DNA from: Terribacillus sp. DMT04
Lineage (GTDB): Bacteria; Bacillota; Bacilli; Bacillales; Amphibacillaceae
NCBI RefSeq assembly: GCF_019056395.1
Contig: NZ_CP077639.1
Location: forward strand, 1 to 52,500
DNA: 52,500 nt
Direction of reading: 5' to 3'
The translations under genes and the position numbers were made by a program. Positions 23,763 through 37,703 of the stretch are shown here, one piece after another (the first letter of the stretch is position 1; every line of letters begins with the position of its first letter). The notes beneath the pieces were generated by a model, which was not told the DNA's origin, did not search any database, and saw only the letters and a program-made list of their open reading frames with translations.

Positions 23763-23835
23763 GGCTCCGTAGCTCAGGGGATAGAGCATCGGTTTCCTAA
23801 ACCGTGTGTCGCAAGTTCGAATCTTGCCGGGGCCG
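23763..23835 (+). tRNA. tRNA-Arg (anticodon CCU), integration target
   Basis: A 73-nt tRNA without encoded CCA. The acceptor stem GGCTCCG pairs with CGGGGCC with one T-G pair. The anticodon loop TTCCTAA gives anticodon CCT, reading AGG. Its 3' half from 23790 is repeated at 37657, so an integrated element begins inside the gene and the crossover restored an intact tRNA. The native terminator is now found after the right repeat at 37711. Confidence 0.95.
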
Positions 23836-23836
23836 T
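23790..23836 (+). repeat. attL: Left attachment site (attL)
   Basis: These 47 bases are identical to 37657-37703. The identity starts at the last-but-one base before the anticodon-stem GGT and ends one base after the tRNA discriminator. The flanking bases differ at both ends (T against G on the left, T against A on the right), which fixes the limits. Confidence 0.95.
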
Positions 23837-23992: not shown

Positions 23993-25036
23993 TTGCCCTC
24001 AAACAGTCGCAAAGGTAAACCCATTGTTACTACTCGTAAAGCACGAGAAATTAGCGACTATATTCCATTACAAGCGACAATAGAAGAATCATTTCAAAGC
24101 TTTCTATCACTTAAAAAGAGTTTAGGTGTTCGGAAACGCACTGTATCGGACTATCATCATTTGATGGATTACTTTCTTTCATGGTTAAACGAAAACCATC
24201 CAGAGATAGAAATGATTCATGAAATTAATACAGCGATTATCCGTGAGTACCTTCTTTACTTGCGAGAGGAAAGGTATAACGACCGTACAAAAAGTGTAGG
24301 GTTATCGCCATTCACTATAAATGTGAGGATACGCTTCTTGAAGACGTTCTTCAATGCGTTATACAAGGAAGAAGTCATTAATAATAACCCGACTAGGAAT
24401 ATTCAGCTTATGAAGGTCGATGAAGACGGGCTAACGCCTCTCACAGATGAAGAAGTCAACAAGCTGATAAGCGTTCCAGATGAACAGTATTATGCCCAGT
24501 TTAGAGACTTAGTAATGATGTATCTCATGTTGGACACAGGTATGCGAATAAACGAAGTATGCGAACTTGAAAACCGCGATATCGACTTCAAGACGAGGGC
24601 TATAATTCTGCCCGCTACTAAGAACAAAAATCGTAAGCCAAGAATACTCCCACTTTCCAATCAAGTAGTAAAGCTACTTTTGGAGTTGGTGGCAGAAAAC
24701 AAAGCTAACTTTGATACGGAGTATGTCTTCGTTTCGAATATAGGTACACGATACAACCCTAATTCCTTTCGTAAGAGGTTGAACAACTATAAAGACTTAG
24801 CAGGTATAACAAAGCGTGTTTCACCCCATGTATTTCGCCATATGTTTTGTAGGAATTACATTATGAATGGTGGTGATATATTTACACTACAAAGGATTGT
24901 CGGACACGCAGATATATCGACAACACGTAAGTACATTCAACTAGATGACAAGGCTATACGGCAACAACACACGCTGTATAGTCCTGCTATAAAGCTTAGG
25001 AGGAACAGAAATGGAAAGTCGTCTTCAGATTTTTGA
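23993..25036 (+). CDS. int: Tyrosine recombinase (integrase)
   Basis: This 347-residue site-specific recombinase is the probable integrase of the element. A SAM-like arm/core-binding domain spans about 30-135. The catalytic domain shows Arg185 (TGMRINEV), His279-x-x-Arg282 (HVFR), His305 (GHADIS) and the nucleophile Tyr314 (TRKYIQ). It starts with TTG 23993 about ten bases after AAAGGTGG. It lies 157 bp inside attL, the usual place for an integrase acting on its own tRNA site. Its 3' end overlaps the next gene by 26 bp. Confidence 0.95.
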   Translation: MPSNSRKGKPIVTTRKAREISDYIPLQATIEESFQSFLSLKKSLGVRKRTVSDYHHLMDYFLSWLNENHPEIEMIHEINTAIIREYLLYLREERYNDRTKSVGLSPFTINVRIRFLKTFFNALYKEEVINNNPTRNIQLMKVDEDGLTPLTDEEVNKLISVPDEQYYAQFRDLVMMYLMLDTGMRINEVCELENRDIDFKTRAIILPATKNKNRKPRILPLSNQVVKLLLELVAENKANFDTEYVFVSNIGTRYNPNSFRKRLNNYKDLAGITKRVSPHVFRHMFCRNYIMNGGDIFTLQRIVGHADISTTRKYIQLDDKAIRQQHTLYSPAIKLRRNRNGKSSSDF

Positions 25037-25265
25037 TTCTAATGGTGATAAATCGTTTGTGAAGGTTTCTAACAACTATTTCAACTTGTCGGAAGCCAAA
25101 GGAGTCTACGGAGTAGCGAAGGAAGAGGAAGGTGCAGATAATACTATTCGCTTGGAGTATTACGAGGAAAGTGATGAGAAGTCTTATTACATTACATTTG
25201 GTGTGGAAGAAGCTGAACAACTAGCACTTACATTACTCAATCTCTCAGACGCTATAAAACGCTAA
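25011..25265 (+). CDS. Small hypothetical protein after the integrase
   Basis: The 84-residue product starts inside the 3' end of the integrase gene, with AGGAGG about six bases upstream, so the two genes are probably coupled. It is acidic, with alternating beta-like stretches (KSYYITFGVEEAEQLALTLLNLSDAIKR), and has no membrane segment. Its location suggests an excisionase-like or integrase-accessory role, but there is no recognisable HTH, so this is only position-based. A small hairpin at 25279-25296 follows. Confidence 0.7.
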   Translation: MESRLQIFDSNGDKSFVKVSNNYFNLSEAKGVYGVAKEEEGADNTIRLEYYEESDEKSYYITFGVEEAEQLALTLLNLSDAIKR

Positions 25266-25278
25266 TAAAAGAAAAAGC

Positions 25279-25296
25279 CGCCTATTGCAGTAGGCG
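25279..25296. terminator. Hairpin after the integrase operon
   Basis: CGCCTA at 25279-25284 pairs perfectly with TAGGCG at 25291-25296. The A run lies on the left (25272-25276), so as a canonical terminator it would serve the minus strand better than the plus strand. Confidence 0.45.
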
Positions 25297-25399
25297 ACCC
25301 AAACACACAAGATAAATCACAATTTAATATGACTTATCATTCACTTACCTTCATGTTATCGAAAAAAATACGATATTGCAAGGCTTCTTAACTATACCC

Positions 25400-25868
25400 T
25401 TTTTTCAGTGAATGGTACGTCCGTCGTGGATTTGCCAGCTAGCACGACGATAATCAAAACACGAAAGGTTACGACTTAGCCGCCGCACAAACTAAGTCTA
25501 GGACATGTAAGCATACCCTATCATGCTTGTGTCTGAAAGGAGAAAGCTGCCATTAAGTGCTGAATGAAGGAAAGACAGACCGTTTACGGACGGTGTAGGT
25601 TATTCCATGAGTAATTAGAAAACCTTCTCCTAGTCCTCCAATATGCGAGGTACGGGGTTAACTAGTCGAAAAGCCAAAGTGTAAGACGTAGAGGACTAAT
25701 GAAACTGCCAGGGCTGTTTGAAGCAGTAGGAATAACAAAGAGGAATCTTTTCGTTGATAGGGATACACTGCGGATACCTCAATAATTCCCGACAGATGTT
25801 GTCCAAGTATAAGCGACTATTCTTATAGCAGATTATTTTTAAATCTTGCTTATAAGGTAGTCGTTTTT
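25400..25868 (+). ncRNA. Large structured RNA candidate, family unknown
   Basis: No open reading frame fits this stretch, but it is full of exact complementary pairs. Local stems are 25422-25428/25443-25449 (CGTCGTG), 25473-25479/25492-25498 (GACTTAG) and 25505-25514/25523-25532. A long-range stem, GTTATTCC 25599-25606 with GGAATAAC 25729-25736, encloses TAGTCCTC 25631-25638 with GAGGACTA 25691-25698 and ACTGC 25704-25708 with GCAGT 25723-25727. Further stems are 25740-25747/25773-25780 and 25791-25794/25800-25803. A long terminator hairpin (25814-25863) with five T residues closes it. The 5' end is uncertain. Large ornate phage-linked RNAs such as ROOL and GOLLD are possible relatives, but I recognise no consensus. 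Confidence 0.72.
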
Positions 25869-26263
25869 ATGCCTTACGTTTTCCCAAACAAGCCCTCAAG
25901 ATGCTGCCAAAGAGAAAACCAAAAAGCAAGATTAAATACTAAAAAACATAAGAATATTTAATGAAATTAACGACAATTAGGATAACTTACTATAGAAGAG
26001 ATTATATAAAATATGGATAACGGACGTTAGGATTACATGTTATTAGCATGTAATGGTATAGGTTTAGATAATAAAATGGTAAAGAAGATAAAAGGGCTAT
26101 GTATTTCGAATTTGATATGAAAACAGAGGAAGAAGCCGAAGAACTAGGGCATAATTGGTATTGCAATTCACAAGACTAAAGTTGTATTAATAGATTGGTA
26201 GAATTAAAGCATTTATATGAACTTGCTTTCTCTGATGAATTTCTTAGTTGAATCTATTGACTA
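25869..26263. other. AT-rich gap before the methyltransferase
   Basis: This AT-rich stretch has no supported gene. A 26-codon frame from ATG 26100 (MYFEFDMKTEEEAEELGHNW) lacks a well-spaced ribosome binding site and is probably a remnant or chance. A small inverted pair, TTACATG/CATGTAA, occurs at 26033-26053. The region presumably holds the promoter for the methyltransferase gene. Confidence 0.5.
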
Positions 26264-26308
26264 AAGCTTATGATTAGCTTATGTTTAACATAAGCTAATC
26301 ATAAGCTT
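26264..26308. promoter_or_regulatory. Perfect 20-bp inverted repeat, likely operator
   Basis: AAGCTTATGATTAGCTTATG at 26264-26283 is followed by TTTAA and its exact reverse complement at 26289-26308. Each arm itself contains AGCTTATG twice, giving four half-sites. It ends 27 bp before the methyltransferase ATG and has no T run, so a protein-binding operator or translation-blocking RNA hairpin is likelier than a terminator. Control of restriction-modification timing is the obvious hypothesis. Confidence 0.75.
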
Positions 26309-26335
26309 ACAGAGAAGAGGTATTAATCTATCACT

Positions 26336-27892
26336 ATGGAAAAAAATAATAAGGATAAAAATCTATATAGTTCCTATTATACAAAGTCAGAATTCATCAC
26401 TGATTATATGATTGAAATGTTGAATTTAAATGAGACTCACTCAGTTCTTGAACCCTCTGCGGGTGATGGTGTATTTATTGACGCACTATTAAAGCAAAAA
26501 CCAAATACAAATATTGATGCCTACGACTTAAACCCTCAAGCAATAGATGTCTTGAACAACAAGTATGATGGATATTCAAATATTCAAGTAGTAGAATCAG
26601 ATACTTTGTTAGATATGGAACTTGATATGAAGGTGTTTATGAATGGAGATTATGACAGAGTGATTGGTAATCCTCCCTATGGTGCTTGGCAGGATTATGA
26701 AAAACGGGCAAAACTCAAAAATATTTATAAGGGATTTTATGTGAAAGAAACCTATGCTTTATTTTTACTACGTTGTATCTCTTTGCTAAAAGAAAATGGA
26801 GTATTAACATTCATTATTCCTGATACATTTATGAATCTTCATATGCATAGAAATCTACGTGAATTTTTATTGCTTAATACAAAAATACATGAAATTTTGA
26901 TGATACCATCTAAATTCTTTCCGGGAGTAAACTTTGGTTACTCTAACCTAACTATAATTACTCTTGAAAAGACTAATAAAGAACAAGCATTATCAAATAC
27001 AGTGAAAATTATTAGTAATTTAAACAGGGCTTCAGATATTGAAGATATAACTAATAGAACAAATTTTGATAAATATAGTGTGGTGGATATTCCTCAAAAG
27101 GAAATTTTTGATTCGATAGACATGGCATTTTTAATTAAGGCTGGGGACAAAGTTAGATACCTTATAAATAATCCTTCTTTGACACTAAGCGATGTTGCAG
27201 ATTGTGTGACGGGAATTTATACGGGAAACAATAGAGAATACTTCAAAGTGTTAAATTCACAAGTGAGAAATCCTACAAAATGTGAATTAGTTGATAAGAA
27301 TAAAGTAGAATACAATTACTTAAAATATAGAAACTTACTTGATGGTATAGAAGGTGATAAGCACTTTATTCCTGTCACAAAAGGAAATGCCGGTATGTAC
27401 CATAGAAATAATGAATGGTTTATCGATTGGGGAGAAGAAGCATTAAAACATTATAGAACAGACAAAAAGGCAAGATTACAAAACTCCAAATATTATTTCA
27501 GAAAAGGTATTGCAGTGCCGATGGTTAAGTCTAGTAAAGTTAAAGCAAGTATAATAGATAATCAAGTATTTGACCAATCTGTAGTTGGTATATTTCCTAA
27601 AGAAGAAAAGTATTTAAACTATTTACTAGCGTTACTTAATTCTGATATTGTTAACACCATAATTCAGACAATTAACCATACGGCAAATAACTCAGCAAAT
27701 TACCTAAAGAAGATTCCAATAGTACTACCAAAGAATGAGAATGATTTAAAATATGTAAACAATTTAGTTAATAAAATGATTAAACATATAAAGGATAAAA
27801 ACGCATTGGATGAAAAATTACAAATAGAACTAAATCAAATTTTCAACACTCTATATGAATATGAAGAATTACCAACGAAGGTACTGGGATAA
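26336..27892 (+). CDS. Adenine-N6 DNA methyltransferase (type II-like)
   Basis: This 518-residue protein is a gamma-type N6-adenine DNA methyltransferase. Motif I is VLEPSAGDGVF near 37-47 (the SAM-binding loop) and motif IV is NPPYG at 112-116 (catalytic). SAM-binding Asp64 lies in AYDLNP. The C-terminal half (about 270-500) should be the target-recognition domain. The gene is distinctly AT-rich. It converges on the endonuclease gene and overlaps it by 24 bp, forming an apparent type II restriction-modification pair. The recognition sequence cannot be predicted. Confidence 0.9.
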   Translation: MEKNNKDKNLYSSYYTKSEFITDYMIEMLNLNETHSVLEPSAGDGVFIDALLKQKPNTNIDAYDLNPQAIDVLNNKYDGYSNIQVVESDTLLDMELDMKVFMNGDYDRVIGNPPYGAWQDYEKRAKLKNIYKGFYVKETYALFLLRCISLLKENGVLTFIIPDTFMNLHMHRNLREFLLLNTKIHEILMIPSKFFPGVNFGYSNLTIITLEKTNKEQALSNTVKIISNLNRASDIEDITNRTNFDKYSVVDIPQKEIFDSIDMAFLIKAGDKVRYLINNPSLTLSDVADCVTGIYTGNNREYFKVLNSQVRNPTKCELVDKNKVEYNYLKYRNLLDGIEGDKHFIPVTKGNAGMYHRNNEWFIDWGEEALKHYRTDKKARLQNSKYYFRKGIAVPMVKSSKVKASIIDNQVFDQSVVGIFPKEEKYLNYLLALLNSDIVNTIIQTINHTANNSANYLKKIPIVLPKNENDLKYVNNLVNKMIKHIKDKNALDEKLQIELNQIFNTLYEYEELPTKVLG

Positions 27893-33439: not shown

Positions 33440-33991
33440 TTATAATACGAAGCTATTCAAGTCTGCTTCAATTTCTTCATCTGTAATGCCAATATATATA
33501 AGGGTGATTTCCGGGCGGGAATGGTTTAATATTCTTTGCAACTTGGCAACATCTTTTGTCTGCTTGTAGAACCAGTATCCAAAGGTCTTACGCATTGTAT
33601 GGGTTCCTATACCTTCCTCTATATCAACCATTCTTCCTGCCTTATTAAGTTGCCTATATGCTTGTGTCGGTGTAATGGGTTTGTCTCCTTTACGGGAAGG
33701 AAATAGCCACTCACTATCAAGCCCTTTTAAGTAATCTTGTATCTCTGTATAGATGTTGGAAACATTTATTGTTCGAGGCTTCTTGGTCTTTCCCTCATAT
33801 ATTACTATCTTTTTCTTCCTTCTAAGTTCACTTGCTTTTAGCTTCAATAGGTCTCCTACACGTAAGCCGGTGTTTATTCCAAGTAAGAATAATATGTAGT
33901 CACGTTCCCCTCACCATTTCTTCAAACTCCATTTCATATCATCAATAATCTCTTTACTACGGATTGGTTGTACATCCTTTACTTGATTCAT
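33440..33991 (-). pseudogene. Short tyrosine recombinase broken by in-frame TGA
   Basis: Read through one stop, this is a 183-residue catalytic-domain-only tyrosine recombinase. It shows the first arginine in TGLRVGDLLKLK, then HTMRKTFGYW (H-x-x-R), LNHSRPEITLIYIG with the second histidine and the tyrosine nucleophile. GGAGGA precedes ATG 33991. Codon 27 is TGA (33911-33913), in the same frame, directly after KKW and before GERDYILFLLGINTGL. A TTG-started remnant (33440-33847) would lack the first catalytic arginine. It is separate from the intact integrase at the left end. Confidence 0.82.
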
Positions 33992-35653: not shown

Positions 35654-36478
35654 TCAGTTATTGTTAATGATGTTAAGCTTCAATGACTTACAGAAACCCT
35701 CTAAGCCAGGATAAATTGTTTCGTGAGTAATATTCATTTTCTTTAGCTGAGACCAACATTCGTTTATTTGGTCTTTTTTAAAAATAAGTTTATGACCTAC
35801 TTCATTACCGTCAAGTTTGCCCTCAACCATGCCATTAGCCTCCAATATCTCTTGGATAGATTTATCCAATACACTAGGTACTAGAAATAGCCCTTGTTGT
35901 TTTCGGATTCTTTCATTCTTCTCAAGAGGTTCATGAAACCAGACGTACGGATGATTATTATCTCGTGTGCTAATCTTTGCGAGTGCTTTGTAACGATAAT
36001 CAGCTGAAAAATAGACTCTTCCCAACTTCTTTGAATAATATTTTTCTAATGCTGTAGAGTCTATTGTATATACACAAAAATCACTCATTGCACTATCTAT
36101 TGCAAAAAATGCAGCAATATAAGGAGAGTATGTCCAATCAAGTAACCTTGTAGGTGTTCCGTAGTGCTGCATCATAGATAGATAACCTAGTCTTGCTTCT
36201 AACCATGCTTTTCTCTCTTCATTTTGTGAATGTTCTATAATATGGGTTGCTGAGTATAGCTTATATGATGAACGAAATTCCTTGTATATACTTTTTTCTA
36301 TTGTCAGTCCTTCTCTATTTGTATAGTCGCCTAGTGATTTTTTACACTCACGATAAAAAGAAGTCTCCAAGTCCCATTCCGTTGAACTCTGCCCCCTGAA
36401 AATCCAACTTCCACCATAATCATTATGTATCAAAGAAACAAAATGCTGCCAATTCTCTATCTGAATTTCTTTCCACAT
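35654..36478 (-). CDS. FRG-domain protein
   Basis: The 274-residue protein carries the FRG domain, named from its FRGQ motif (Phe27-Gln30). The second hallmark, QHYGTPTRLLDWTYSPYIAAFFA, is at 104-126, and the third, RIRKQQGLFL, at about 193-202. The domain is common in phages and in bacterial defence loci; its biochemical activity is not established. AAGGAGG precedes the ATG on the minus strand. It is divergent from the broken membrane coiled-coil gene, at the right-hand cargo position of the island, where satellites often keep anti-phage genes. Confidence 0.88.
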   Translation of the reverse strand: MWKEIQIENWQHFVSLIHNDYGGSWIFRGQSSTEWDLETSFYRECKKSLGDYTNREGLTIEKSIYKEFRSSYKLYSATHIIEHSQNEERKAWLEARLGYLSMMQHYGTPTRLLDWTYSPYIAAFFAIDSAMSDFCVYTIDSTALEKYYSKKLGRVYFSADYRYKALAKISTRDNNHPYVWFHEPLEKNERIRKQQGLFLVPSVLDKSIQEILEANGMVEGKLDGNEVGHKLIFKKDQINECWSQLKKMNITHETIYPGLEGFCKSLKLNIINNN

Positions 36479-37656: not shown

Positions 37657-37703
37657 CGGTTTCCTAAACCGTGTGTCGCAAGTTCGAATCTTGCCGGGGC
37701 CGT
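37657..37703 (+). repeat. attR: Right attachment site (attR)
   Basis: These 47 bases are an exact copy of 23790-23836, the 3' half of tRNA-Arg(CCU). Preceded by TTTTTG, not by a tRNA 5' half, it is not itself a tRNA gene. It marks the right limit of the element. Confidence 0.95.

Follow-up and report, generated by a model that had tools for sequence, protein, structure and literature searches.

The window, by which we mean the whole 52,500-nt stretch of the Terribacillus sp. DMT04 genome that was analysed, carries a 13.9 kb tRNA-integrated element flanked by two identical 47-bp copies of the 3′ end of tRNA-Arg(cct) (left, 23790-23836, +; right, 37657-37703, +), in agreement with the tRNA-integrated, satellite-like element proposed in the first-pass annotation. 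Inside the left border, a tyrosine integrase gene (23993-25036, +; PF00589, E 5e-40) is followed by an 84-aa open reading frame with no Pfam or PHROG family (25011-25265, +) and then by the member of the structured RNA family described here, which spans 25413-25935 on the + strand, about 500 nt, with both ends placed approximately from alignments. Downstream of the RNA lie an Eco57I-like methylase, regulators and an HTH protein that weakly matches terminase-small families (E 0.001), and further along the element are HNH/endonuclease VII-like, replication-initiation-like HTH and FRG-domain proteins. The FRG domain is often met in anti-phage defence, and the FRG-domain protein at 35654-36478 (-) is cargo of the island. 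A second tyrosine recombinase fragment, judged by its sequence to be a C-terminal part, is located inside the element at 33440-33847 (-), and an AT-rich, perfect 20-bp inverted repeat with a 5-nt spacer occupies 26264-26308 between the RNA and the methylase gene.

As previously described, the stretch 25400-25868 contains no open reading frame of at least 50 aa on either strand. Single-sequence folding gave a z-score of -1.37 for the + strand, with 10 of 100 shuffled sequences folding equally well, and of -2.56 for the - strand, which is lower relative to its shuffles than the + strand. Folding energy is thus unremarkable and does not discriminate, and the case for an RNA therefore rests on comparison. 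Homologous loci (46) were reduced to 38 by removing eight near-duplicates (at least 92% identity) and, by leaving out L117, L128 and L096, to the 35 sequences of a MAFFT alignment that was fitted to no structure (A2). Across 65 pairs in 12 helices, 76.9% of 2182 cells were paired in A2 compared with 33.8-46.5% when partners were displaced by 1-3 columns (slid controls), cells with changes on both sides numbered 417 compared with 103-145, and none of 500 shuffles reached the observed value on any of five measures. A scan for further helices gave PK2, P10 and a longer PK1 (25573-25578/25714-25719); the two pseudoknots and P10 together were 92.9% paired against 38-60% in slid controls, with 64 double-change cells against 7-20. 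For one measure of the five, that of further pair types, the observed value was attained in 28 of 500 shuffles.

We also applied a test of our own, modelled on R-scape but distinct from it, in which parsimony substitutions were redistributed on the tree to give 40 null alignments and the tail was extrapolated. Among the 180901 column pairs that it covered in 38 sequences, six reached E<0.05, all of them in P2, P3, P4 or PK1; four of the six have at least 85% standard pairs, and only two score clearly above every null value. No pair of P1, P5, P6, P8-P11 or PK2 reached E<0.05 among these 180901. Compensatory base changes exceed the slid and shuffled controls, which bears out the large multibranched RNA of the first-pass annotation. 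On this comparative evidence a genuine structured RNA is almost certainly encoded here, and the knotted shape that relatives keep although their sequences differ indicates a real, apparently undescribed RNA family.

Alignment A2 supports most of P1-P6 and P8-P11, plus the two pseudoknots; P3, P4 and P6 are paired in 90-98% of cells and P1, P2 and P3b in 65-72%, and we attribute the low pairing of the latter three and of inner P11 to the alignment. All parts lie on the + strand. The three hairpins noted earlier upstream of the junction correspond to P1, P2 and P3/P3b. P1 (25422-25449) pairs CGUCGUG with CACGACG around a conserved GGA..GCC loop, with 72% of cells paired, double-side changes in six of seven pairs and some rows misaligned. 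P2 (25473-25498) pairs GACUUAG with CUAAGUC around a conserved CCGAUGCA-type loop and is 70% paired, again with double-side changes in six of seven pairs; its pairs 25476-25495 and 25477-25494 have E 0.015 among the 180901 tested. A competing helix, 25493-25496/25717-25720, conflicts with P2 and was not adopted. Within 25501-25534, P3 (25501-25506/25529-25534) has 97.8% of cells paired in its segment 25502-25505/25530-25533, where pairs 25503-25532 and 25504-25531 reach E 0.02 and 0.003, and it is continued by P3b (25509-25514/25523-25528), which is 65% paired. The loop of P3b holds the 5′ strand of PK2, CCCUAUC (25516-25522), whose partner is 25756-25762. PK2 is 98.3% paired with double-side changes in six of seven pairs, for example CCUUGUU/AACAAGG, and the distant member L131 keeps it with different letters, CCCAAUC/GAUUGGG. 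P4 is a short hairpin around AAAGC (25539-25551), 90.5% paired, and its best pair, 25541-25549, has E 0.03 but is standard in only 29 of 38 sequences. The 5′ strand of PK1 (25573-25578) pairs with 25714-25719 in the loop of P8, with 85.2% of cells paired, and its pair 25577-25715 has the best E of all pairs tested, 0.0005. P5, an ACCGU/ACGGU hairpin, follows directly (25579-25594; 85% paired, double-side changes in five of five pairs).

P6 (25599-25606/25729-25736) closes the three-way junction, with 95.3% of cells paired and double-side changes in seven of eight pairs. Of the two stems that it had been said to enclose, P8 (25704-25708/25723-25727) holds up, with 87.5% of cells paired and double changes in two of five pairs, while P7 (25631-25638/25691-25698) belongs to an insertion present in 10 of 35 aligned rows, where the helix is variable and, on visual inspection, can be made out in no more than about half of the ten carriers, in some only after a one-base shift. 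The two pseudoknots come in addition to the stems of the first-pass annotation. P9 is a hairpin at 25737-25750, whose helix 25738-25741/25746-25749 is 81.2% paired with double-side changes in four of four pairs. P10 (25752-25755/25812-25815; 94.3% paired, double-side changes in three of four pairs) overlaps the two outermost pairs of P11 and encloses both the 3′ strand of PK2 (25756-25762) and a conserved segment that ends in CGGAUACC (25771-25778). P11 is a long hairpin with a U-rich apical loop (25814-25863); its outer helix is 74.6% paired and its inner helix 41.3%, no better than slid controls in this alignment, which was fitted to no structure. A helix 25595-25598/25817-25820 competes with P11 and was not adopted. 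Beyond P11, alignments define a conserved, single-stranded-looking tail (25870-25935) that reads CGUUNUCC and later CAAG. The U-rich loop of P11 (25832-25840) and the A-rich conserved part of the tail (25900-25930) offer possible pairing or a U-A-U triple helix. Some members are incomplete, with L091 lacking P11, L117 lacking the usual 5′ half and L040 ending within the 3′ core.

The kinds of pairs in these helices point to RNA rather than DNA, and to the + strand. The listed helices contain 238 G-U and 61 A-C cells. A G-U pair becomes A-C when the opposite strand is read, so the folded molecule is the RNA of the + strand. The nominal p of 7e-26 for this difference is too small, as it treats cells of related sequences as independent; 58 of the 238 G-U cells are located in PK1, and another 276 non-pairing cells represent remaining misalignment.

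Signals for the start and end of transcription were sought around the RNA. A consensus scan found no sigma-70-type promoter just upstream on the + strand, and it listed no + strand terminator at 25200-26400. Ahead of the RNA, a conserved leader (25348-25405, +) allows alternative pairing of AAGG 25380-25383 with CCUU 25348-25351 or with CCUU 25398-25401, and the latter precedes a T run, an attenuator-like arrangement that in its strict form occurs in 11 of 38 members (27 do not have it) compared with 0.1 expected in shuffles. The region 25345-25405 reads as a hairpin with an A-rich loop followed by AAGGC..GCCUUUUUU. Leader similarity also occurs without the RNA in L004 and L006, between the integrase module and an HTH-like open reading frame, and the leader is a possible attenuator of this element family. 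At the 3′ end, the first-pass annotation had placed a closing terminator hairpin with a T run, and this does not stand. We considered P11 for that part and rejected it as a conserved terminator, because its loop holds the conserved U run, a T run behind the stem occurs only in the window and a few relatives, and family similarity continues about 70 nt past P11, to ~25935; the alignments show no conserved terminator at the 3′ end of the RNA. On the - strand, three terminator-like sites lie in and before the RNA compared with 0.5 expected in shuffles (25275-25300, 25499-25520 and 25579-25594; consensus scan). The first of these may end a leftward transcript, the second overlaps P3 and the third is P5 reversed.

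Relatives were collected by blastn and with a covariance model of the 3′ core (R1; 173 positions, 18 pairs). Within the host family, blastn matched G052 at 77% identity over 540 nt (E 5e-94), as well as G046 and G123, and in G047 and G082 the match was limited to the leader; 54 of 159 genomes were listed at E<=0.1, mostly for short chance matches. Two plasmid records matched, one of them a Sutcliffiella plasmid of 15 kb and the other assigned to B. velezensis, with 807 kb. Two other plasmid matches, H5 and H6, have only the leader and the 5′ end in common with L031 and were set aside, being without an R1 match. R1 gave E<=0.01 in 8 of 156 host-family genomes (five strong, the window's own included) and in 23 of 397 genomes of the order, 22 of these at E<1e-8, again with the window's own. 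Nine of 398 genomes at class level comprised the window's own, three already known, the strong new G859 and four weak ones; at phylum level the two matches in 299 genomes were the window's own and one weak, and further family samples, with partly overlapping genomes, gave 5 of 193 and 4 of 24. Weak matches with E 0.001-0.01 (G126, G086, G154, G354, G553, G642, G757, G867 and G936) were left unused. In the genome search R1 missed the diverged L003 of G046, which scored 17 bits as a locus.

A pattern scan added 15 partly redundant IMG/VR contigs, each matched by R1, and 14 GTDB contigs, 10 of them matched by R1; the other four (L084, L085, L090 and L093) lack an R1 match and were dropped as chance. 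The R1-matched GTDB contigs come from Cytobacillus, Virgibacillus, Siminovitchia, several Bacillus and one metagenome-assembled genome labelled Candidatus Paracaedibacteraceae, whose contig may be a misplaced Bacillus contig. The pattern GGGATACACTGCGGAYACC was absent from the viral contigs scanned, and a blastn search of phage genomes with three members (the window's, L032 and L031) gave no match. Ten R1-matched loci (L033, L036, L037, L039, L040, L041, L092, L094, L098 and L104), mostly same-type copies or contig-end pieces, were left out of the 46, and the counts given here are not all independent, as several viral contigs duplicate contigs that also enter other counts (L037 and L087 are examples). 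Comparison places members in prophages, in small integrative (satellite-like) elements and on plasmids, mostly from Bacillales, and within our sample the family looks largely restricted to that order and to elements that are temperate or integrative.

Of 46 loci, 28 (25 of 38 once near-duplicates are removed) have a homologue of the window's integrase, assigned by blastp clustering, immediately upstream of the RNA and in the same direction, and in these 28 the integrase gene ends 255-766 nt before the RNA core. Six more of the 46 loci have an integrase elsewhere within 9.5 kb, including L099 and L091 with the gene upstream at 1006 and 911 nt, and an integrase homologue was not found in the remaining 12; several loci are cut contigs or Bacillus prophages. 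In Bacillus prophages, for example L035-L042, the RNA is surrounded by small genes and lies close to the end of the phage. Distances between RNAs and those between integrases show a weak correlation (Mantel r 0.27, p 0.002, 25 loci), and L107 and L115 carry RNAs 73% and 72% identical to that of the window next to integrases only 28-29% identical. This weak co-inheritance leads us to regard the RNA as an exchangeable module at the integrase that is not tuned to one integrase. The first downstream open reading frame of at least 100 aa, called mechanically and uncurated, is on the same strand in 34 of 45 loci and on the opposite strand in 11.

Elements with defined borders are 13.9 kb (window), 10.8 kb (L118), 7.8 kb (L119) and 4.4 kb (L091) long. 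In the 7.8-kb element every part of the RNA is present, and a search of some of its listed open reading frames recognised no capsid gene. Attachment sites include tRNA-Arg and tRNA-Leu at the end of host tRNA clusters, and tRNA genes occur in 9 of 45 related loci, 8 of these 9 being a host-type tRNA cluster adjoining the element. Other attachment sites are at what we take, from B. subtilis gene names, to be yneF beside sirA (11 and 9 loci), and L118 has a 195-bp duplication of the yneF end. RNA-bearing elements at yneF were noted in L088, L108, L109, L118, L122, L123, L125, L129, L132, L133, L134 and L091, and the gene appears to be a hot spot at which small elements integrate. Six non-redundant loci (L089, L097, L099, L125, L129 and L135) encode a phage major head protein of the 292-aa type (phrog_1328) 3.1-7.0 kb downstream of the RNA, and all except L099 also encode a small protein of phrog_2429, which we presume to be BhlA-like; it is suggested that these integrase-RNA elements are small phages or capsid-bearing satellites.

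Our working interpretation, to which we give about an even chance, is that the locus encodes a stand-alone, doubly pseudoknotted + strand non-coding RNA of about 500 nt that helps its element persist or propagate in a manner like that of ROOL and GOLLD. The occurrence of the RNA in prophages, in islands with no recognised capsid gene and on plasmids, together with its stand-alone position and elaborate fold, is why we take it to act in trans, most likely as a stable folded particle, alone or with protein. It would aid the element once excised or induced, with the long RNA of Ligilactobacillus salivarius described below as a precedent. Transcription would come from the direction of the integrase or from a promoter that the scan did not recognise, and the attenuator-like leader may gate it. 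In the predicted particle, PK1 would tie the P8 loop to the P4-P5 linker in a compact body, PK2 would tie the P3b loop to the P10 domain, and the exposed conserved segment 25764-25778, the U loop of P11 and the tail would serve as contact sites. The 11 loci with an oppositely oriented next reading frame speak for a stand-alone RNA, while the 34 co-directional ones are what a leader would also give, and the lack of a recognised sigma-70-type site just upstream and of a conserved 3′ terminator counts against our interpretation. The role in the element's life cycle that the first-pass annotation had called likely is suggested by context only. A more speculative variant, which we consider rather doubtful, is that PK2 or PK1 forms between molecules and yields an RNA-only multimer by which the element would protect or maintain itself; if this is true, the multimer would be a further natural class of self-assembling RNA beside ROOL, GOLLD and OLE.

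The alternatives differ in what they make of the surroundings of the RNA and of its size. The RNA could act in trans as a sponge, an antisense RNA or a protein-titrating RNA that controls genes of the host or a helper phage and has no part in element maintenance; its occurrence in a defence-bearing island (FRG, methylase) and in prophages alike would suit such a regulator, and highly conserved unpaired segments such as CGGAUACC could bind targets, but its size and elaborate fold exceed the needs of a sponge, and we rate this clearly below the particle interpretation, though ahead of the remaining alternatives. The co-directional integrases (28 of 28 where adjacent), the same-strand majority of downstream reading frames and the attenuator-like leader are also what would be expected if the RNA were a leader or antitermination element in cis through which polymerase reads from the integrase operon into cargo genes. 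A cis-regulatory leader should, however, always be upstream and co-directional, and the 11 of 45 opposite cases, although counted on mechanical reading frames, do not show this; Bacillus prophage copies such as L035-L042 have a different position, in a group of small genes close to the end of the phage, and to our knowledge leaders of the antitermination kind are far smaller than this fold. We consider a cis role unlikely.

Two other proposals assign the locus to DNA processing. The mobile-element context and the plasmid records that carry the sequence would be compatible with DNA that is itself functional, as a single-strand origin, a transfer origin or a packaging site, but folded DNA is not expected to be so one-sidedly tolerant of G-T, and the excess of G-U over A-C cells (238 to 61) makes this very improbable in our view. 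Bridge RNAs serve IS110 recombinases, and the direct adjacency in 28 of 46 loci and the partial correlation of RNA and integrase distances (r 0.27) could mean that the tyrosine integrase uses the RNA as a partner or guide in an analogous way. That correlation is weak, however, L107 and L115 combine similar RNAs with divergent integrases, and no match between RNA and attachment site clearly beyond chance was found in four elements, the best being 11 nt in L119, a length reached in 6% of shuffles; we reject an integrase guide or cofactor on the weak co-inheritance and the lack of a clear attachment-site match, and regard it as the least probable reading of all.

An independent family in Bacillus and in islands down to 7.8 kb would make the role of giant RNAs in mobile elements testable. 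Apart from rRNA and tmRNA, bacteria are known to have few large RNAs, and with two long-range contacts predicted by covariation the RNA offers a new target for structure determination.

Comparison with described RNAs places this family apart. A cmscan of Rfam 15 returned no family over 25413-25935 at the gathering threshold, consistent with the first-pass annotation, which had recognised no known family, and the permissive matches over the RNA, such as SAM_alpha at 16 bits and mir-791 at 17.7 bits, are at chance level and far below gathering. In a cmscan of 16 loci the sole Rfam match was BsrF, beside the RNA in L083, and ROOL was not matched by cmscan in the window or in 23 loci, 20 of which are RNA-bearing. 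Covariance searches with ROOL (RF03087) and GOLLD (RF02032) each gave no match over the cut-off in 25 carrier genomes, and no control genome was matched either; the GOLLD model produced four chance-level matches (E 0.3-0.6) at other places. By covariance model the RNA is neither ROOL nor GOLLD, so that of the likeness to these RNAs raised by the first-pass annotation the working style remains apt and family membership does not. No description of the family was found in the literature searched, which comprised titles and abstract openings and had most subscription papers and preprints outside its range. Judged from genes alone, the window element resembles PICI-like satellites and IMEs in having an integrase, a regulator, a replication-initiation-like HTH protein, a weak terminase-small-like HTH protein and cargo; large structured RNAs are not known to us as components of such elements.

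The closest likenesses are with three large RNAs. Like the RNA described here, ROOL is an orphan RNA that is large and pseudoknotted and occurs in phages and prophages, and ROOL and GOLLD form RNA cages of unknown function (PMC12286853). The Rfam model of ROOL has 574 positions, a length similar to that of our RNA. A long RNA of Ligilactobacillus salivarius, which we take to be the ROOL named for that species (PMC12286853), is reported to be both abundant and stable; when it was deleted, the copy number of the megaplasmid fell, an effect that the authors state may be indirect (PMC5643018). GOLLD is likewise a large ornate prophage RNA, is often found near tRNA islands and increases in expression during lysis (PMC12286853), whereas the loci related to ours rarely have tRNA genes (9 of 45). 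OLE is also an ornate, large RNA of Gram-positive bacteria (PMC11332333); the RNA described here differs from it in having no Rfam match, in being borne by mobile elements and in its varying downstream neighbours. We file it as a new family of large ornate RNAs of mobile elements.
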